NCBI RefSeq assembly: GCF_018531375.1
Contig: NZ_JAHBOH010000001.1
Span: 2,852,001 to 2,916,000 of the forward strand
Direction of reading: 5' to 3'
Source: Cellulomonas fulva
GTDB taxonomy: Bacteria; Actinomycetota; Actinomycetes; Actinomycetales; Cellulomonadaceae
DNA: 64,000 nt
The stretch's first letter is position 1; each line of letters opens with the position of its first letter. The position numbers and the translations under genes were made by a program. Positions 41,183 to 51,047 of this stretch are shown in pieces. The notes under the pieces are model-generated. The model made no database searches, was not told where the DNA came from, and worked only from the letters and a program-made list of their open reading frames with translations.

Positions 41183-42937
41183 TCACCGGGCCTTCACGCC
41201 GGCGGAGTACGTGGCCTTGGCCCAGTACGAGCCGGTGCTGACCGGGGTCACGCGGACCTTGAGCCACTTGCCCCGGTCCGCGGCCGTGACCTTGTAGGAC
41301 TGCGACGTCGCACCCTTGATCGCCACGCCGTTGCGGTACCACTGGAACTTCTTCTTGGTGACCTTGCCGACGAAGCCCTTGGCGACGGTGCCCTTGACGA
41401 CCTTGCCCGCCGCCGGCGTGCCGACGACCTTGGCCTGGCCCAGCGGGACGAGCGCCTTCGAGATGTCGAGGTAGCCGCGCCCGCACAGGCTCGTGGAGCA
41501 GTTGTACGACGAGCCCGAGTACCGCGGGAACGGGGAGACGATCTTCTGCACGGCCTGCTCGAGCGCCGCACCCTTGACGCCGAGCGACGCGATGAGCGCC
41601 GCCGCGCCGGCGACGGCGGGCGCCGCCTGGCTGGTCCCGGCCATGCCGCCCCAGGTCGCCTTACCGGGCGACGTGGTCCCCGCGTTGATCGTCGACCAGA
41701 CGTAGCCCGACAGCGACGTGCCCGAGCCCGAGCCGCCGGGGGCCGACAGGTCGACCGCGGAGCCCTTGTTCGAGTAGGAGGAGCGCTTGCCGTTGCGGTC
41801 GATCGCGCCGACGTTGATGACGCCGGCGCAGTTGCCGGGCGCGGAGAGCGTGGCGGTCTTGTTGTAGTTGCCCGCGGCGGTGATGACGACGGCGCCGCGC
41901 TTGCGGGCGTTCGTGATCGCGGTCTGCAGCGACCGCGGGCAGGTCACATCGGCCTGCGTCTGGATGGAGAGGTTGATGACCTTGGCGGGCGTCGCGTTCC
42001 TCGACGTCCCGGACACGGCGCCGCCCGAGGCCCAGGTGATCCCCGCGGCGATGTCGCCGAACGTGCCGCCACCCTTGCCGAGCACGCGGACGGGCTGGAT
42101 CTTGGCGTTGGGCGCGACTCCCGCCATGCCCGTGGTCCCGCGCGCCGCGGCGACGATCCCGGCGACGTGGGTGCCGTGCCAGGTGCTGCCGCCCTGGTAG
42201 CCGGCGAGGTCCCCGTTGTCGAGCGGGTTCGCGTCCCGGCCGTTGCCGTCGCGGGCCGACGCCGCGGACGAGATCATGTCGTAGCCCGCCACGACGTTCG
42301 GGTTCAGGTCGAAGTGCTTCGTGATGCCGGTGTCGACCACGGCGACCACGACGCCGCCGCCCTGCGTGCGGGGCCACATGTTGAGCGCGTGCGCGGACCA
42401 GCCGCCCTTGGGGATCGCGACGTTGCTCACCGAGCCGTTGCGGTAGTCCCAGACGTTCCACTGGTACTTCTTGAAGTACTGATCCTTCGGCGTGACCGGG
42501 CCCGACTGCGCCGTGGTCGCGATGTAGTTCGGCTCCGCCCACTCGACCGCCGGGTTCGCGGCCACCGCCGCGGCCGCCTTGGCCGCCGTCGCCACGGAGA
42601 CCGGCTCCGCGAAGTCGACGGCCGCGGTGTCCGCGGCGTCGACCGGCGTCGTCGTCGTCCCGATCGCGACGCCCGAGGCCACGCCGGCCGCGGCCGAGAG
42701 ACCCTTCGCCGACGCCGTCGGCGAGTAGCCGTCGCGCATCTTGTAGATGACGCCGGCGGCGAGCTGCTGCGTCGCGGGCTCGCTGGTCGGCTGCGGCACC
42801 GGCTGGATGCCGACCGCGTCGTCGTCCGCGGCCTGCGCGGGTGCCACCAGCGCGGAGGTGATCAGCCCCATCGCCAGGCCGGTGCACAGCGTCAGCGCTG
42901 CGCCCCGGCGCACGGTCCGTCCGGTCGGTGTCGTCAC
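41183..42937 (-). CDS. Secreted S8 (subtilisin-like) serine protease with C-terminal Ig-like domain
   Basis: A 584-residue secreted protease. A signal peptide (about residues 1-37, cleavage near AQA-ADD) precedes an inhibitor-like propeptide (to about 145) and the peptidase S8 domain with Asp202 (VVDTGITKH), His254 (WHGTHVAG), oxyanion Asn357 (TAAGNYN) and Ser436 (MAGTSQAAP). After the catalytic domain a module of about 80 residues contains KKKFQWYRNGVAIKGAT, the Ig-like pattern common in actinobacterial secreted proteins, probably for binding polymer or cell wall. GTG start with AAGGGG upstream. It is next to a paralogue lacking this module; the two share insert motifs and look like a tandem duplication. 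Confidence 0.93.
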   Translation of the reverse strand: MTTPTGRTVRRGAALTLCTGLAMGLITSALVAPAQAADDDAVGIQPVPQPTSEPATQQLAAGVIYKMRDGYSPTASAKGLSAAAGVASGVAIGTTTTPVDAADTAAVDFAEPVSVATAAKAAAAVAANPAVEWAEPNYIATTAQSGPVTPKDQYFKKYQWNVWDYRNGSVSNVAIPKGGWSAHALNMWPRTQGGGVVVAVVDTGITKHFDLNPNVVAGYDMISSAASARDGNGRDANPLDNGDLAGYQGGSTWHGTHVAGIVAAARGTTGMAGVAPNAKIQPVRVLGKGGGTFGDIAAGITWASGGAVSGTSRNATPAKVINLSIQTQADVTCPRSLQTAITNARKRGAVVITAAGNYNKTATLSAPGNCAGVINVGAIDRNGKRSSYSNKGSAVDLSAPGGSGSGTSLSGYVWSTINAGTTSPGKATWGGMAGTSQAAPAVAGAAALIASLGVKGAALEQAVQKIVSPFPRYSGSSYNCSTSLCGRGYLDISKALVPLGQAKVVGTPAAGKVVKGTVAKGFVGKVTKKKFQWYRNGVAIKGATSQSYKVTAADRGKWLKVRVTPVSTGSYWAKATYSAGVKAR

Positions 42938-43125
42938 GTCGTCCCCTTGCGTCGTCGTCTGTCGTCGTGAAAGTCGGCCGCAGCAACCGTCGCGCGGCGC
43001 TAGGAAGATAACGGACACGTCCGACGAACGACGACTCCAGGACGCCCGTTCACCCGGACGCGGGCCCGCCGGGACGCCTGGTCGGCGTCGCGACGGGCCC
43101 GCGTCGCGGGACGGCGCGCGGTGGT
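42938..43125. other. 188-base gap between the two proteases, nothing recognised
   Basis: The gap holds the ribosome binding site of the first protease gene and an untranslated region, but no clear promoter or hairpin that I can support. Confidence 0.4.
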
Positions 43126-44619
43126 TCAGGCCTTCCCGAGGTCCAGGACGCCCTCGCCGCACAGCGCCTTGGTGCAGTTGTTCCCCGGGTAGAACGAGTA
43201 CGTCGGGAACCCGCGGACGGACGCGAGCAGCTTCTTCTCGAGCGCGACGCCCTTGAGGCCCGTGGACGCCAGCAGGGCAGCCGCCCCGGCGACGCCCGGC
43301 GTCGCCTGGCTGGTCCCCATCATGAGGCCGTACCCCGCCGCCTTCGGCGTCTTGAGCCCGGTGTTCACCGTCGACTTCACCAGCAGGTACGGCCCGTAGT
43401 ACGGGTCCTCGCCGCCGGGCGTCGCGATGTCCACGACGGCACCGAAGTTGGAGTACGACGCGCGCTGGCCGTACTGGTCGAGCGACGCGACCGTGATGAC
43501 GCCGTTGCAGCTCGCGGGGACGTAGTTCCCCGCGTTCTCGTTGTCGTTGCCCGCGGCCACGACGACCACGGAGCCGCGCGCGCGGGCGCCGTTGATCGCC
43601 TTCTGCAGGTTGGGGAACTCGCTGCACCTCCCCGCGCCACCGAGCGAGAGATTGATGACGGCCGCCTTCGTCTTGTTCTTCGGCACCCCGGAGACCGTCC
43701 CACCGGACGCCCAGGTGATGCCCGCCGCGATGTCCGCGAGGGACCCGCCGCCGGCGCCGAGGACACGCACGTGCTGGATGCGGACACCGGGCGCGTTGCC
43801 GACGACCGTCTTGCCGTCCGCCAGCGCGCCGACGATGCCGGCGACGTGGGTGCCGTGCCAGGAGCTCGGCACCAGGTCGCCCGAGAGGTCGTAGCCCCAG
43901 TCCCCCTGGTCCTGCGGGTTGACGTCGCGGCCGTTGCCGTCCCGCGCCACCGCCTTCGACGAGATCATGTCGTAGCCCGCGACGGTGTGGGCGTCGAGCT
44001 GCGGGTGGTTGGTGCGGCCCGTGTCCAGCACGGCGACGACCGTCGAGGCCTTGCCCTTGGTCTTCTTCCAGAACACCGGCGCGTGCGTGCTGTAGCCACC
44101 CACGGGCAGGGCGACCGAGCCCGATCCCGTCGGCGAGGGCCGGCTGTTCTTGAAGTCCCAGATGTTGAACTGGCGCCCGGCGCGGAAGTCGGGGTCGGTC
44201 GGGTTGACCGGCGGGTTCGACTCGATGGTCAGCAGCAGGTTCGGTGCCGCCCACGCGACGCCCGGCAGCGCGGCGACGGCGTCGGCAGCCTCCTGAGCGC
44301 GCGCGGCGCTCACCGGCTGCTCGAACTCGACGACGCCCGCCTGGGTGGCGTCCTGGGGCCGCACGGACGCCACGTCCACCCCGACGACGTCACGCGCCGC
44401 GGCGAGGCCCACCGACGCCGCGGAGACCTTCGCGGAGCCCTCGAGCTCGAAGAGCACACCGGCCGCGCGCTGCGGCGCCGGAGCGGTGCGCGGGATCTTG
44501 GCCGACGGCGTGCTCGGCGTCGCGGCACCAGCCGCGGGCACCAGCGCCGCACCGATCAGCGCGGCGACCATGCCCGCGCCCACGACGGCGCCGACCGCGC
44601 GCCGATTCCTTGTCCTCAT
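43126..44619 (-). CDS. Secreted S8 (subtilisin-like) serine protease, paralogue without C-terminal module
   Basis: A 497-residue secreted protease with a signal peptide (about 1-32, ending GAA), a propeptide, and an S8 domain with Asp199 (VLDTGRTNH), His255 (WHGTHVAG), oxyanion Asn (VAAGNDN) and Ser437 (MMGTSQATP). It shares with its neighbour the AGYDMISS-DGNGRD-NP insertion and the DIAAGITWASGG segment, and ends right after the catalytic domain with CGEGVLDLGKA. Probably an extracellular nutrient or maturation protease. It lies divergent from the GGDEF-EAL gene across 194 bases. Confidence 0.93.
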   Translation of the reverse strand: MRTRNRRAVGAVVGAGMVAALIGAALVPAAGAATPSTPSAKIPRTAPAPQRAAGVLFELEGSAKVSAASVGLAAARDVVGVDVASVRPQDATQAGVVEFEQPVSAARAQEAADAVAALPGVAWAAPNLLLTIESNPPVNPTDPDFRAGRQFNIWDFKNSRPSPTGSGSVALPVGGYSTHAPVFWKKTKGKASTVVAVLDTGRTNHPQLDAHTVAGYDMISSKAVARDGNGRDVNPQDQGDWGYDLSGDLVPSSWHGTHVAGIVGALADGKTVVGNAPGVRIQHVRVLGAGGGSLADIAAGITWASGGTVSGVPKNKTKAAVINLSLGGAGRCSEFPNLQKAINGARARGSVVVVAAGNDNENAGNYVPASCNGVITVASLDQYGQRASYSNFGAVVDIATPGGEDPYYGPYLLVKSTVNTGLKTPKAAGYGLMMGTSQATPGVAGAAALLASTGLKGVALEKKLLASVRGFPTYSFYPGNNCTKALCGEGVLDLGKA

Positions 44620-44813: not shown

Positions 44814-47081
44814 GTGCTCGGGACCGTGCCCACGTGGGTCTGCGCCGTCCAGCTGCTGGCAGCCGGACTGGTCGCGGGCCTGCTCGTGCTGCAGTGGCTG
44901 TGGTGGCGCACGGACCAGCGGCCCCGCGGCGCGGTGTGGGCCCTGTTCTGGTCGGCCGACATCGGCGCCATGCTGCTGGTCGGCGGGATCGCCGGCTTCC
45001 TCGAGCCGGGTCTCGCCCAGCAGGTGCTCGGGTTCGCGCACGCGCAGCTGGTCGGCGGGTTCCTGCTGCTCGCGCTGCCGGCCACCCGCTGCTTCGGCCA
45101 CGGACCGCGCGTGCGGTGGTGGCTGGTGGGCGCCGCGACCCCGCTCGTCGTCGGCGCGGCCGCCTGGTTCGCCCTGCAGCTGCGGCTCGGCGAGACGCGC
45201 ACCGACCTCGTCGTCGGCTCGTCCCTCCTGCTGTCGACGCTCGTCGTCGTGCTGTACGTCGTGGTCACCGTCGGCCGGCGGTCCGTGACGCTGTGGGGCG
45301 TGCTCCTGGTGCTCGCCGCCGCCGAGTCGGTGTGCATGCTCGTCGTGAGCGGCTTCATGCCGGACCGGGACATCAGCGCGCTGCTCGCGGCGCTGTGGGC
45401 GGTGCCGATCGCGTTCGGGCTCGCCGCGCTCGCGCTCGTCCGGATCCGCCAGGAGCAGGAGCGCGCGCGACGCCAGCACCGCATGCGGGACGCGATCGCG
45501 CGGCTGGGCAACGCGGCGTGGTTCTCCCGGGACGCCGACGCGCTCCTGCTCAAGGCCCGCGACGAGGCCCGCACCGTGCTCGACGACCAGACCCTCGAGG
45601 CGTCGCTGCGACCGATCGCGCACGGACGGTTCGTCTGCGAGCTGTACAGCACCGCCACCCACGACGCCCAGGCCCGGACGCTGCTCGTCGACCTCGCCCA
45701 GATCGTGTCGAGCGCCGCCGAGCGGTACGCCCTCACCCAGCGCCTCGAGCGCACCGCGTTCACGGACGCCCTCACCGGGCTGCCCAACCGGCGCGCGGTC
45801 GAGCGGCACCTGCACGACGAGCTCGAGCGGGCCAACGTCGAGCGCACGCGCGTCTCCCTGGTCTACTGCGACCTCGACGGCTTCAAGCGGTTCAACGACG
45901 TGCACGGGCACGCGGGCGGCGACGACGTGCTGTGCCGGGTCGCCGCCTACCTGCGGACGGTCGCCCCGGGCGAGGAGACGTTCGTCGGCCGACTGGGCGG
46001 CGACGAGTTCGTCGTCGTGGTCTCCCGCTCGCCGCTGGAGCCCGAGCTCGTCTCGCTCGCCCGGGCGGTGCGCGACGGGTTCGTCGACCGCAGCGTCGGC
46101 AGCCGGCCCGCCCGGCTCTCGGTGGGCATCGCGACCTGGCAGCCCGGTGACGTCGTGGACGTCGAGGCCCTGGTCCGGCACGCCGACACGGCGATGCTCG
46201 AGGCCAAGCGGTCCCGCACCGGGTTCCGGGTGTTCGACCGCGCGCTGCGGCGGGCGGTCGAGGCCGACCGGATCCAGCGCTCCGCCCTCGAGGCCGCGGT
46301 CGCCGACGGCCTCTTCATGGCCCACTACCAGCCGGTCGTGGACGCCCGGACGCTCGAGGTCCTGCAGGTCGAGGCCCTCGCGCGGTGGGACCACCACGGC
46401 CAGCTGATCCTGCCCGTGGAGTGGCTCGACCTCGCCGAGGAGACCGGCCTGATCGCCCCGATCAGCCTGTCGGTCCTGAACCAGGCCCGGCGCGCCCTCG
46501 ACCGGTTCCAGATGCCGGTCGCCGTCAACGTCGCCGCGCGCCAGCTCGCCGAGCCGGACGCGCTCGAGCAGATCGAGACCGCCTGGGGCAGCAGCTACTG
46601 GGAGCACCTGACCCTCGAGATCACCGAGAGCGCGCTGGTCCAGACGTCGTCGGCCATCCCCGTGCTGTCCGAGCTGCGCGCCCGTGGCGCCCGGATCGCC
46701 GTGGACGACTTCGGCACGGGGTACTCCTCGCTCGCCCGCCTGGCGCGGCTGCCCGTGGACGTGCTCAAGATCGACCGCTCGTTCGTCCGCGAGGTCGGCA
46801 CCGAGCGGGGGGCGTCGGTGATCCGCGCGATCGTGGAGCTCGCGTCGGCGCACGGGCTCGACGTCGTGGCGGAGGGCGTGGAGCGCGCGAACGACCTCGC
46901 CGCGCTCGTCGACCTGGGCGTCCGACGGGTCCAGGGCAACCTCCTGGGCCGCGCGATGCCCACCATCCCGGTGCGAGGTCCGCGCCCCGGCTCCCAGTGG
47001 GAGGACACGCGGCCGCTGCGCGTCGTGCCCAGTCCCCGGTCGGAGAACGACGAGCCCCACCGCCTCCCCCAGCACGCCTGA
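44814..47081 (+). CDS. Membrane-bound GGDEF-EAL protein (cyclic di-GMP turnover)
   Basis: A 755-residue protein with about seven membrane helices in residues 5-212, a linker (about 215-310), a diguanylate cyclase domain and a phosphodiesterase domain. GGDEF is intact at residues 395-399 (GRLGGDEFVVVV). The RxxD inhibitory site that usually precedes it is absent. The EAL domain has the catalytic VEALARW (520-522 for EAL), NVAARQL, EITESAL, DDFGTGYSSL, KIDRSFV and VAEGVE. Both activities could therefore be present. The integral membrane sensor is not a recognised family. GTG start without a clear Shine-Dalgarno sequence. The type IV pilus block 12 kb away is a possible output, but nothing links them directly. 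Confidence 0.92.
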   Translation: MLGTVPTWVCAVQLLAAGLVAGLLVLQWLWWRTDQRPRGAVWALFWSADIGAMLLVGGIAGFLEPGLAQQVLGFAHAQLVGGFLLLALPATRCFGHGPRVRWWLVGAATPLVVGAAAWFALQLRLGETRTDLVVGSSLLLSTLVVVLYVVVTVGRRSVTLWGVLLVLAAAESVCMLVVSGFMPDRDISALLAALWAVPIAFGLAALALVRIRQEQERARRQHRMRDAIARLGNAAWFSRDADALLLKARDEARTVLDDQTLEASLRPIAHGRFVCELYSTATHDAQARTLLVDLAQIVSSAAERYALTQRLERTAFTDALTGLPNRRAVERHLHDELERANVERTRVSLVYCDLDGFKRFNDVHGHAGGDDVLCRVAAYLRTVAPGEETFVGRLGGDEFVVVVSRSPLEPELVSLARAVRDGFVDRSVGSRPARLSVGIATWQPGDVVDVEALVRHADTAMLEAKRSRTGFRVFDRALRRAVEADRIQRSALEAAVADGLFMAHYQPVVDARTLEVLQVEALARWDHHGQLILPVEWLDLAEETGLIAPISLSVLNQARRALDRFQMPVAVNVAARQLAEPDALEQIETAWGSSYWEHLTLEITESALVQTSSAIPVLSELRARGARIAVDDFGTGYSSLARLARLPVDVLKIDRSFVREVGTERGASVIRAIVELASAHGLDVVAEGVERANDLAALVDLGVRRVQGNLLGRAMPTIPVRGPRPGSQWEDTRPLRVVPSPRSENDEPHRLPQHA

Positions 47082-48168: not shown

Positions 48169-48732
48169 TCAGTCGTTCACGCGGCCCAGGTAGGAGCCGT
48201 CGCGCGTGTCGACCTTGACCTTGGTGTCCGCCTCGAGGAACAGCGGGACCTGGATCTCGTAGCCCGTCTCGAGCGTCGCGGGCTTGGTTCCGGCGCTCGA
48301 GCGGTCGCCCTGCAGACCCGGCTCGGTGTAGGTGACCATCAGCACCACCGACGGGGGCAGCTCGACGTACAGCGGGACACCGTCGTTGGTCGCGACGAGC
48401 GCGTTCTGCGACTCGAGCATGAAGTTCGCCGCGTCGCCGACCGTGGCGGCGGGGACGTTGATCTGGTCGTACGTGTCCGTGTCCATGAACACGAAGTCGT
48501 CGCCGTCCTTGTACAGGTACTGCATCTCGCGCTTGTCGACGTTCGCCGTCTCCACCTTGATGCCGGCGTTGAACGTCTTGTCGACGACCTTGCCGCTCAG
48601 CACGTTCTTGAGCTTGGTGCGCACGAACGCGCCGCCCTTGCCCGGCTTGACGTGCTGGAACTCGATGACGGTCCACAGCTGGCCGTCGATGCGCAGCACG
48701 GTGCCGTTCTTCAGGTCGTTGGTGGTCGCCAC
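48169..48732 (-). CDS. efp: Translation elongation factor P
   Basis: Relieves ribosome stalling at polyproline stretches. The 187-residue protein has three beta-barrel domains; the tip loop of domain I reads [10 protein letters not shown] with Lys32 at the position that is modified in some bacteria. The C-terminal signature [19 protein letters not shown] (read in part) is present. GTG start at 48732 with AGGAAG upstream. Followed by nusB after one base. Confidence 0.97.
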
Positions 48733-48870
48733 GATTCGTCGCTTCCTGTCGAGGATGGGGTTCCGGGGCGGGCCGGACGACACCCGCCAGGAACCGCTCG
48801 CGACGACGACACGTCGACAGCTCCCGGCTCGCGTGCGTCAGTCCGGCCGCAGGCCGTCGACCATCCTAGC

Positions 48871-48901
48871 GCGCGAGCCTCGCTGGGCCTCGCGGGCCTC
48901 G
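48871..48901. repeat. 10-bp imperfect repeat with a GCCTCG core
   Basis: Three degenerate units (gcctcgctgg, gcctcgcggg, cctcgtcgcg) in the gap between the membrane protein gene and efp. The core resembles the 12-bp array near priA. Confidence 0.5.
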
Positions 48902-48928
48902 TCGCGTCTCCCCGAGCCGCGCGGCGGC

Positions 48929-49537
48929 TCAGGTGATCAGCAGGCGCCCGACCACGCCGATCGCGACGGCCCACACGAGCGACGCGAGCGTCCCGATCAC
49001 GAACCGCTCCGAGACGCCCGGGTTCTCGCGCAGCTCCGGGTAGCGACCCAGCCCCTTGACCGCGACCACGATCGCGACGCCCTCCACCTGCCCGAGCAGC
49101 ACGCACCCCGTGACCGCGAGCCGTTCGAGGATCCCGATCCAGGTCCCGCCGCGCAGCACGGCCTTCGCGCGCGGGCCGTCGGGCCCGTCCGACGAGCCGG
49201 CGACGCTGAGCACCGGCGGGGCGGGGTCCGCGGACTGCGGGTCGCCGGCGCCCGCGGGCGCTGCGGGCGCTGTCGGCACGGCCGTCGTGGCCGTCGGGCC
49301 CGCAGCGCCGGCCGCGACCGACGGCTTCCCCGCCGACGTCGGCGCCGGAGACGCAGCGCCGGCGGCGCTCGGGCTGGTCGCGCTCGGGTCGAGCGCGGGA
49401 GGGGCGGCGGTGCTCGTCGTCCCGGCGTCGCCGGACCGGGAGGCCAGACGCAGGACCCCGGCGACCACGAGCCAGCCGAGGCCCGCCGAGACCGCCAGCG
49501 CCAGCACCACCACGAGCACGTCCAGGACGTCGTCCAC
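48929..49537 (-). CDS. Membrane protein, DUF3307-like partner of a SatD-like regulator
   Basis: A 202-residue protein with an N-terminal membrane helix (residues 6-28), a long Ala/Pro/Thr-rich linker (about 35-125) and a C-terminal pair of helices. The C-terminal region, GGTWIGILERLAVTGCVLLG then KGLGRYPELRENPGVSERFV and IGTLASLVWAVAIGVVG, matches the pattern of membrane proteins encoded next to SatD-family genes. The GTG at 49537 has GGGAGGTGA upstream, a strong ribosome binding site. It lies downstream of the SatD-like gene on the same strand with a 111-base gap. Function unknown; co-regulation is inferred. Confidence 0.65.
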   Translation of the reverse strand: MDDVLDVLVVVLALAVSAGLGWLVVAGVLRLASRSGDAGTTSTAAPPALDPSATSPSAAGAASPAPTSAGKPSVAAGAAGPTATTAVPTAPAAPAGAGDPQSADPAPPVLSVAGSSDGPDGPRAKAVLRGGTWIGILERLAVTGCVLLGQVEGVAIVVAVKGLGRYPELRENPGVSERFVIGTLASLVWAVAIGVVGRLLIT

Positions 49538-49648
49538 CCGGTCACCTCCCGCCGCGGCGGCACACCCGCCGCACGCGACCCAAGCACATCCGCCGGGCGC
49601 GCGCACGTGTCCGCGCGGGACCGGCGCCGCGCTCGTCGGACCTCCGGC

Positions 49649-50287
49649 TCAGCCCGCCGCGAGCCCCAGGAGCCACGCCGCCGCACGGCGGGCGGCGAGC
49701 TCCTCCTGCCAGAGCGCCGTGCGCAGTCGTTGGCTGATCGCCTGCTGCGAGACCCCCATCTGCGCCGCGACGTCCTCCTGGCGCGCGTCGGGCCCGGCCT
49801 GCTCGATCGCGTCGATCGCCGCCCAGCCGGCCGCCGACCGTCGCGCCGCCGTCGCTGCCGCGAGGGTGAGCACCGCCTCGGCGTCGAGGCCGGCGTCGTG
49901 GTGCGCGCCGCGCACGGCCAGCGGCACGACGCGCTGCCGGCTCTTGGCGGCCTCGACGGCGTCCCGCGCGAGCACGAAGCCCGGCCCCGACGCGGCCCGC
50001 GAGCTCTCCGGCAGCGGCTCGTCGACCGGCCCGCACCCGATCCCCACGCTCCAGCCGCCCCACCGCAGCACCGTCAGCGCGACGTCCACGACGAGCCCGG
50101 CGTCGTCGAGGACGCCCTGCACCTCGTCCCCCACGGTCCGCTCGAACCCCAGCACCACCCCGTCGCGCGACGATCCAGAGGAGCTGGCGATGATTCCTGG
50201 CCATTCACTCTGGGTGACGCGCAGGAGCTCCGGGACGCGGTCGGTGTCGCGGCGGCTGCCCCGCTGGTCGATGGTCAGGATGAACAT
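49649..50287 (-). CDS. SatD-like regulator with C-terminal helix-turn-helix
   Basis: A 212-residue cytosolic protein. The N-terminal FILTIDQRGSRRDTDRVPELL and GFERTVGDEVQGVLDD resemble SatD-family proteins, which are poorly characterised. The C-terminal segment EDVAAQMGVSQQAISQRLRTALWQEE is a typical helix-turn-helix of the sigma-region-4 or MarR kind. The ATG at 50287 is chosen because FILTIDQ is the family start; the frame stays open to 50443. Upstream lie TTGTCC and GACACT at 17-base spacing, and three alternating ACAAG/CTTGT half-sites that could be its own operator. The membrane protein gene follows on the same strand. Confidence 0.65.
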   Translation of the reverse strand: MFILTIDQRGSRRDTDRVPELLRVTQSEWPGIIASSSGSSRDGVVLGFERTVGDEVQGVLDDAGLVVDVALTVLRWGGWSVGIGCGPVDEPLPESSRAASGPGFVLARDAVEAAKSRQRVVPLAVRGAHHDAGLDAEAVLTLAAATAARRSAAGWAAIDAIEQAGPDARQEDVAAQMGVSQQAISQRLRTALWQEELAARRAAAWLLGLAAG

Positions 50288-50573
50288 GGGACCAGTGTCC
50301 AACCTTGTTCGGTCGAGGACAAGCCCTAGAACTTGTGGACACAGCATGCGCGCCTGGGAGCGGGTGACGCCCTCGTCGTGCGCCTGCCGCACGGTGAGCA
50401 CCCCGGCGACCGCCGCCCGGGGAACCCACCCGTCCTCCACCACACCCGCGCCGCATGCCTGGCTGCCGCTGGCCGGCCGTCCCGGCCCTGCACAAGGACG
50501 CTCCTCGTCTCCGAGGATCTGGCGACGAATCGTGACCGGACTCTCTGGCTGGATGGGGCGGCTGCGACGCTGG
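50288..50573. other. Non-coding stretch between the SatD-like gene and the aroQ end
   Basis: The 328-base gap to the aroQ stop holds the SatD-like promoter with its half-sites at the left and the pentamer array at the right. The middle (50345-50570) contains no recognised gene; a 5' extension of the SatD-like frame to 50443 is the only alternative. Confidence 0.45.
50304..50336. promoter_or_regulatory. Candidate operator of the SatD-like gene
   Basis: Half-sites CTTGT (50304-50308), ACAAG (50319-50323) and CTTGT (50332-50336) alternate in orientation, forming two overlapping inverted repeats across the likely -35 and -10 region. Confidence 0.4.
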
Positions 50574-50623
50574 GGTCAGGTCAGGTCAGGTCAGGTCAGG
50601 TCAGGTCAGGTCAGGTCAGGTCA
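50574..50623. repeat. (GGTCA)10 pentanucleotide array at the aroQ stop codon
   Basis: Ten perfect tandem copies of GGTCA (TGACC on the minus strand). The aroQ stop codon (TGA, 50618-50616) lies inside the array, so the repeat supplies the end of the gene; an array this pure suggests recent slippage. Confidence 0.97.
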
Positions 50624-51047
50624 GGGAGGAGAGAGCCAGTCGGTAGCTGGTCAGGCCGAAGCCGGCGACGGTGCCCGTCGCCACGGGACCGACCACCGAG
50701 TGGTGCCGGAACGTCTCGCGCGCGTACGGGTTGGTCAGGTGCACCTCGACCAGGCGCAGCCCGGCACCGGTCACCTGCGCCGCCGCGTCCCGCAGCGCGT
50801 AGGAGTAGTGCGTGAACGCCGCGGGGTTGAGCACCACGTCGCAGCGGGTGTCGACGGCCTCGTGCAGCCAGCCGACGAGCTCGCCCTCGTGGTCGGTCTG
50901 GCGGACGTCGACCTCGAGGCCCAGCTCGGCCGCCCAGCCCTGCACGGCCGCGGCGAGGTCCGCGAACGTCTCGGAGCCGTAGACCTCCGGCTCACGCGTG
51001 CCGAGCCGGGACAGGTTGGGGCCGTTGAGCACCAGCGCACGCGTCAT
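50616..51047 (-). CDS. aroQ: 3-dehydroquinate dehydratase, type II
   Basis: Third step of the shikimate pathway, dodecameric type II enzyme. The 143-residue protein has [21 protein letters not shown] with catalytic Tyr23 and Arg18 region, [27 protein letters not shown] and [17 protein letters not shown] with the catalytic His. The C terminus (SSLT) and stop codon are formed by a TGACC pentamer array. The ATG is preceded by TACGCT at seven bases, so it may have its own leaderless promoter 77 bases after aroB. Confidence 0.95.

Follow-up and report, generated by a model that had tools for sequence, protein, structure and literature searches.

A short minus-strand stretch of the Cellulomonas fulva genome encodes a SatD-like protein and, behind it, a membrane protein (here MEM), and raises the question of what such a pair does and how it is controlled. 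We followed up both genes and the sequence before them within the window, by which we mean the whole 64,000-nucleotide stretch of DNA that was analysed, and among relatives of the pair in other genomes and on plasmids. As the best reading we propose, with rather more confidence than doubt, that SatD is a nucleotide-responsive autorepressor restraining a membrane effector, MEM.

Table 1 Features of the SatD/MEM locus, in positions of the window
Feature	Position	Strand	Details
SatD-like gene	49649..50287	minus	ATG at 50287, stop at 49649, 212 aa
SatD-like protein, parts			residues 1 to ~141, class III cyclase/GGDEF-type fold (model and alignment); then C-terminal helices, with helix-turn-helix at 170-190
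MEM (membrane gene)	48929..49537	minus	GTG at 49537, stop at 48929, 202 aa
Palindrome 1, ACAAGTTCTAGGGCTTGT	50319..50336	minus	sole exact ACAAG-N8-CTTGT in the genome
Palindrome 2, ACAAGGTTGGACACTGGT	50291..50308	minus	28 bp from palindrome 1; decayed fourth half-site
-35-like TTGTCC	50317..50322	minus	overlaps half-site 2; predicted from sequence and conservation
-10-like GACACT	50294..50299	minus	17 bp spacer, 6 bp before the ATG; weak hexamer; predicted from sequence and conservation

The MEM start codon has a Shine–Dalgarno-like GGAGGTGACC in front of it, and an alternative start, the upstream GTG at 49606, would give a protein of 225 residues. By eye, the same-strand genes upstream of SatD are aroK, aroB and aroQ, and those downstream of MEM are efp and nusB. 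In Cellulomonas the locus occupies a stable chromosomal site beside the aro genes and efp, and this neighbourhood is the rule in Cellulomonas and the allied genera that chiefly make up the named relatives (80 loci). It is nearly missing in other groups, for which shorter flanks were inspected, so the linkage of the pair is independent of that setting. The SatD and MEM genes overlap by four bases in 46 of 73 named loci, where the MEM start across relatives is the first start codon, picked by script. Two records, L154 (Sphaerisporangium cinnabarinum) and L139 (Cellulosimicrobium cellulans DE0111), carry loci that look like those of Cellulosimicrobium and Cellulomonas, respectively, and are perhaps misnamed. 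The window also holds a perfect pentanucleotide array (GGTCA × 10.4; 50574–50625) between aroQ and SatD, a long open reading frame at 44814–47081 that reads by eye like a GGDEF-EAL protein, and two at 41183–44619 that read by eye like subtilisin-type proteases.

The first protein had been called a SatD-like regulator in an earlier note on this DNA. It is indeed a SatD relative, but of an outlying branch, because it scores 20.1 bits with the Pfam SatD profile (PF16264) against a cut-off of 29; run over its own genome and 14 control genomes, that profile gave no match. Intermediate sequences joined the window protein to the SatD family as a related branch, and divergent relatives (L184, L191 and L192) reach 48–59 bits with the Pfam profile. 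It is like the family in length, in a GDE motif and in a C-terminal helix-turn-helix, and differs as a branch of its own with QRGSRR and RTVGDEVQ motifs. The helix-turn-helix, which the earlier note had also named, is present in the model as helices 170–177 and 181–190; Pfam saw it as Sigma70_r4 at 19.6 bits, below the cut-off of 24.1.

The structural model of SatD (mean pLDDT 96.7, pTM 0.92) runs b-a-b-b-a-b-a-b, followed by helices that include the helix-turn-helix. Foldseek returned mycobacterial adenylyl cyclases in its first rows (E 0.027 or worse, none under 0.001), with the palm domain of Panoptes OptS among the weak rows (E 0.11). In a second structural comparison Rv1264 matched over 110 residues (Z 10.7, 2.4 Å), and the 50 matches listed were all cyclase, GGDEF or related palm domains, GTP cyclohydrolase III included. 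By sequence, a 12-row SatD profile searched against the PDB found the Rv1900c cyclase domain as its best match (E 2.9e-4), the remaining matches being helix-turn-helix proteins, and the alignment placed D7–S11 and T51–G53–D54 on the metal-site motifs of Rv1900c. Residues D54, E55, Q57, R50, S11 and R108 are conserved in 168/168 rows of the SatD alignment and D7 in 167/168, certain of these rows sharing a genome. At the fourth position before R108, Asn in class III cyclases, SatD has Phe, Leu or Tyr, and the purine-specifying Lys of those enzymes is not conserved. The residues that define class III cyclases are described in a paper whose subject is DUF2652 rather than SatD, in a part of which Rv1900c is given as having His in place of the Asn (PMC4886424). 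Judged by model and alignment, the N-terminal part of SatD folds as a class III cyclase/GGDEF domain and keeps both metal-site aspartates; most likely a nucleotide is bound or turned over there. The likeness to class III cyclases (Rv1900c and Rv1264) and GGDEF domains thus lies in fold and metal-site motifs, as seen in sequence and model, and the difference from class III cyclases lies in the fused helix-turn-helix and in the catalytic Asn and purine Lys, which are not kept.

MEM consists of an N-terminal helix, a Pro/Ala-rich linker and a C-terminal helical module (RGGTWIGILER...KGLGRYPEL...SERFVIGTLAS), and the WIGILER...IGTL segment, put forward earlier as conserved, is strongly so among relatives. 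The model of the 225-residue form (pLDDT 75) has helices at 23–56, 145–171, 174–187 and 196–224, with the linker at low confidence. It gave no Foldseek match in the PDB under E 4 and no useful sequence match there, and MEM matched no Pfam family; a known nucleotide-binding domain was recognised neither by Pfam nor in the model nor by the PDB sequence search.

A connection to a named family came through the C-terminal module. The MEM of a divergent locus (L191) matched the C-terminal part of plasmid DUF3307 proteins by tblastn (E 3e-4, 33%), and an alignment of MEM and DUF3307 C-terminal modules in 10 rows has ten invariant positions besides the start. DUF3307 (PF11750) membrane proteins and MEM therefore have in common, across phyla, a module G..IG..ER...K...R...E....G...S. 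They differ in that the DUF3307 domain proper is the N-terminal part, for which PF11750 gave no match in MEM or in the five relatives scanned. Directly upstream of the DUF3307 gene lies a SatD-like gene in the 8 annotated loci inspected.

These related pairs were found on ten plasmids, which comprise five of the ten plasmids matched from the MEM side and five of the further SatD-side matches, one of the latter unannotated. The DUF3307 protein follows a protein of ~190–250 residues on pEC34A of E. coli (3770 bp) and on a 4424-bp Klebsiella plasmid, and likewise in Vibrio lentus, Enterobacter kobei, Segatella copri, Sphingomonas insulae, Pseudomonas fragi and Salinivibrio costicola. Against Pfam, the Vibrio upstream protein gave a partial, sub-threshold SatD match (24.5 bits) and four others tested gave only helix-turn-helix-type or weak matches. 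A SatD profile built without the plasmid proteins gave Segatella 34.5 bits, Vibrio 27.0 and the proteins of the two small plasmids 19.0 and 14.9, with no match reported for the Enterobacter protein; by tblastn, the Segatella protein matched its counterparts in Enterobacter, Vibrio, Klebsiella, Sphingomonas and P. fragi. Aligned with SatD, the plasmid proteins keep the GD motif. SatD is unmistakable (65 bits) on an Arthrobacter plasmid, where it comes with a MEM.

Several plasmid loci have features of their own. The pair fills much of the 3770- and 4424-bp plasmids, where upstream repeats of AACCAAAA/TTTTTGGTT type suggest a separate operator, and a near copy of the pEC34A pair was not found in E. 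coli complete genomes. On the Segatella plasmid, CTTGAT/ATCAAG half-sites from 2903–2922 onward stand just before the SatD-like gene and resemble the actinobacterial TCAAG class (described below); the gene may really start later than the annotated 2932. On the Sphingomonas insulae plasmid the pair is immediately next to genes annotated as a Pycsar effector and cyclase, near a TIR-domain gene. We also considered SatD as a phage gene and rejected it, since phage records gave no matches and none of the 339 viral-contig stretches that fit a pattern was confirmed. The DUF3307 protein likewise had no match in phage records, against which stands one DUF3307 entry in a jumbo phage table (PMC8504454), the single appearance of DUF3307 in the parts of the open-licence literature searched.

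The linkage of the two genes, on which the earlier note depended, holds widely. Of 152 testable main-branch loci, 147 have MEM next to SatD: counted over the non-identical loci of that branch, MEM follows SatD on its strand in 144, lies on the opposite strand in 3 and is missing in 5, with 5 more cut off by contig ends. Where a locus has two SatD genes, the highest-scoring one was used for this count. MEM is also present in 10 of 11 divergent loci (inverted in one) and in 10/10 plasmid loci, the latter not an independent test of pairing because those loci were selected partly through MEM similarity and a profile to which they themselves contributed helped to call their SatD-like genes. Across 81 genomes of the genus, 61 have both genes and 19 neither, and one is interrupted by a contig edge. 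SatD counts as present in 62 (63 by the E limit, with a 41-residue match in G041 counted absent) and MEM in 61; the only genome with SatD and without MEM (G002) is the one at the contig edge, and the first part of MEM can be seen there. We considered whether the 19 remaining genomes have a divergent SatD and rejected this: a wider profile matched 15 of 19, at ~20–23 bits and in the helix-turn-helix half only.

The exceptions are informative about what SatD does to MEM. In three loci (L003, L004 and L005) MEM is inverted and kept, without half-sites before its start, so control of MEM transcription by SatD need not be universal. A common stretch, CTGTGGTTCGGTAGGCGC, lies directly before the inverted MEM ATG in these three loci and is perhaps a leaderless promoter of its own. 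One genus has two SatD paralogues, of which the one with MEM (L196) keeps D7 and GDE and those without it (L195 and L102) have D7N and G53E; in another MEM-less locus (L213) GSA replaces GDE. L190 and L208 keep the metal motif and have no recognised MEM; here SatD genes from two different branches lie ~0.7 kb from each other on a single strand. At L060, SatD is shortened and MEM is on another contig. The link between MEM presence and the SatD metal motif, drawn from sequence comparison in two lineages, is suggestive.

In a rival reading, SatD would be an active or tonic nucleotide synthase whose product gates MEM, as in Pycsar or Panoptes, the helix-turn-helix merely setting the dose of the operon. 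This we consider unlikely. The cyclase fold and conserved metal aspartates would fit a synthase, but the cyclase-site Asn and Lys are not conserved and MEM is without a recognised known nucleotide-binding domain; likewise, the loss of the metal motif from MEM-less SatDs in two lineages, and the genes staying together after transcriptional uncoupling, are set against the two loci that keep the motif without a recognised MEM. The plasmid pair adjoining a Pycsar system and the OptS palm among the weak Foldseek rows point towards known signalling systems, yet relatives were absent from phage records and none was confirmed in viral contigs, and PADLOC gave no trustworthy match: its 2023 library, which predates the Panoptes paper, returned one helix-turn-helix-region row (E 0.038) among five proteins.

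It is also improbable, in our estimate, that SatD is a housekeeping stress regulator, responding to a metabolite and adjusting a membrane protein that does no harm (in transport or the envelope), without toxicity. That role would suit the constant chromosomal position of the pair, among aro genes, efp and nusB, in Cellulomonas and allied genera. Against it stand the patchy distribution, with both genes absent from 19/81 genomes of the genus, the related pairs on plasmids, the smallest of 3770 bp, and SatD of Streptococcus pyogenes. In the portion of the S. pyogenes transposon study that deals with it (PMC11323703), satD alone among accessory genes scores in the top quarter for essentiality; it is found in 178/249 genomes and is essential in emm1, emm28 and emm49 strains. 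A gene both accessory and essential, as that portion reports, is what would be expected if SatD restrains something harmful, and by analogy it lends indirect support to harm by MEM.

How the pair is controlled can be read from the sequence before SatD. Three alternating ACAAG/CTTGT half-sites had been described there, and they stand at 50332–50336, 50319–50323 and 50304–50308. They are three of four, because a second palindrome with one mismatch sits 28 bp from the first; the fourth half-site, which completes it (50291–50295, CTGGT on the minus strand), has decayed by one base, and the complete unit is ACAAG-N8-CTTGT-N10-ACAAG-N8-CTTGT. The exact palindrome has one copy genome-wide, which indicates local control, and with up to one mismatch it occurs at 19 places, compared with 125 for a backwards-read control pattern. 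A larger regulon was rejected for a genome with one exact site. Conservation of the half-sites, which the earlier note had left to be checked, was evident: after 171 loci were reduced to the 137 with distinct sequence around the start, 110 had a perfect five-base palindrome with an eight-base spacer before SatD, against 9.8 in shuffled and 34 in coding controls, and 27 had none. Chance half-sites were rejected on this conservation and on the genome-wide count. Other even spacers were also elevated (up to 107 loci at spacer 10) because the sites extend and repeat, and odd spacers were at baseline. In most of the 62 loci of the genus the alternating pattern is visible directly before the start.

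Palindrome positions across loci peak at −49, −35 and −21, and palindromes starting at −49 and −21 place half-sites at −49, −36, −21 and −8, around the promoter elements. A consensus promoter scan of 48700–50650 reported no promoter, the TTGTCC/GACACT hexamers included, so the promoter call rests on conservation. Among the 137 loci, T, T and G occupy −35, −34 and −33 in 90, 75 and 72%, a TANNNT ends 6–7 nt before the start in 83, and a Shine–Dalgarno-like sequence precedes the start in 3. Because of the TANNNT so close to the start and the rarity of Shine–Dalgarno-like sequences, we predict a SatD transcript that is probably leaderless and half-sites that lie over both of its promoter elements.

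The outer base of the half-site varies between lineages, and with it one residue of SatD. Most Cellulomonas and Actinotalea loci have ACAAG or ACAAC; TCAAG occurs in Cellulosimicrobium, Isoptericola, Oerskovia and others, and GCAAG in one family with 6–8 Mb genomes. We compared operator class with SatD residues in those 96 of the 137 loci for which a perfect palindrome could be classed and the protein was full, using alignment columns filled in 90% of rows only. Residue 181, the first of the recognition helix and Q181 in the window protein, had more mutual information with the outer base of the operator than any other such column. It is Q in 57/59 A-class loci, E in 25/28 T-class loci (14 of these 28 assigned through the TTGAT form of the site) and R in 9/9 G-class loci, and GCAAG goes together with R at 181 in a different family as well (L198). 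Further T-class loci show V, A, T, P or K at residue 181, and P stands there in a single A-class locus. A tree of the N-terminal domain calls for 4 changes of operator and 6 of residue 181, and the operator classes cluster strongly on it; an independent-pairs test of the switches has at most 4 pairs and so cannot reach significance. A lineage-specific change of half-site that tracks a recognition-helix residue supports the predicted binding by SatD itself and is an argument for SatD as the reader of its own promoter, albeit one with few independent switches behind it. That another regulator reads the operator, and that shared ancestry made the link to residue 181, is very unlikely: the clustering of operator classes would suit it, but residue 181 ranks top among the tested columns at the expected DNA-reading position, Gln with A and Arg with G match the known base preferences of DNA-reading residues, and L052, the sole T-class locus within the A-class clade, is also the locus with V181.

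Autoregulation, as proposed in the earlier note, is thus well supported from sequence, by a conserved operator over SatD's own promoter whose outer base tracks residue 181. We return to the reading of SatD as a nucleotide-responsive autorepressor, for which the operator, its SatD link, the fold and the pairing are supported by computation. SatD, presumably dimeric, would bind the ACAAG-N8-CTTGT palindromes through its C-terminal helix-turn-helix and, lying over the −35 and −10 elements of its putative leaderless promoter, would block RNA polymerase. Binding of a nucleotide or metal at the cyclase-type site would alter repression, and a change in that nucleotide would relieve it. MEM, a predicted small multi-helix membrane protein, would be the effector, restrained by SatD through transcription and probably also through the nucleotide site; for such restraint beyond transcription speak the inverted MEM genes kept without half-sites and the metal motif lost in MEM-less SatDs. 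Repression we infer from the position of the operator, activation being the alternative, and we likewise infer the dimer, the ligand, the activity of MEM and its restraint beyond transcription.

In autoregulated toxin–antitoxin operons the restraining gene comes first, the operon is short, the operator lies over the promoter and the genes are present or absent jointly. Pycsar has a two-gene logic of a cyclase-fold protein and a membrane protein. By analogy, the SatD/MEM logic resembles the former, being alike in gene order, short operon, operator over the promoter and joint presence or absence; it differs in the fixed locus in Cellulomonas and in a toxin role that is putative. If SatD makes its ligand, the logic would also resemble Pycsar or Panoptes. 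Panoptes (OptS/OptE) is alike in pairing a palm-fold protein with a membrane protein; its published abstract mentions no DNA-binding autorepressor, and we found no shared effector domain. The open-licence papers listed in searches on SatD and DUF3307 yielded no description of the pair, of a cyclase fold in SatD or of the operator, and the passages on SatD in PMC10326533, PMC10210942 and PMC5786311 give only its name, a protein level or an expression change. A bolder, decidedly speculative extension is that SatD with MEM or DUF3307 is a widespread, so far undescribed nucleotide-guarded membrane-effector system. In it a single protein with a class III cyclase-type domain and an operator-reading helix-turn-helix would write or read the nucleotide signal that keeps the effector closed and would also repress the operon, and stress or phage interference with that signal would release the effector.

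Two uncharacterised names, SatD and DUF3307, are here joined in one recurring pair, which spans actinobacteria and, in related form, plasmids of proteobacteria and of a Bacteroidota species. The predicted cyclase fold turns into a testable ligand hypothesis, and residue 181 with the outer operator base into a testable specificity code. For the streptococci, the pairing offers a possible explanation for the essential score of an accessory gene.
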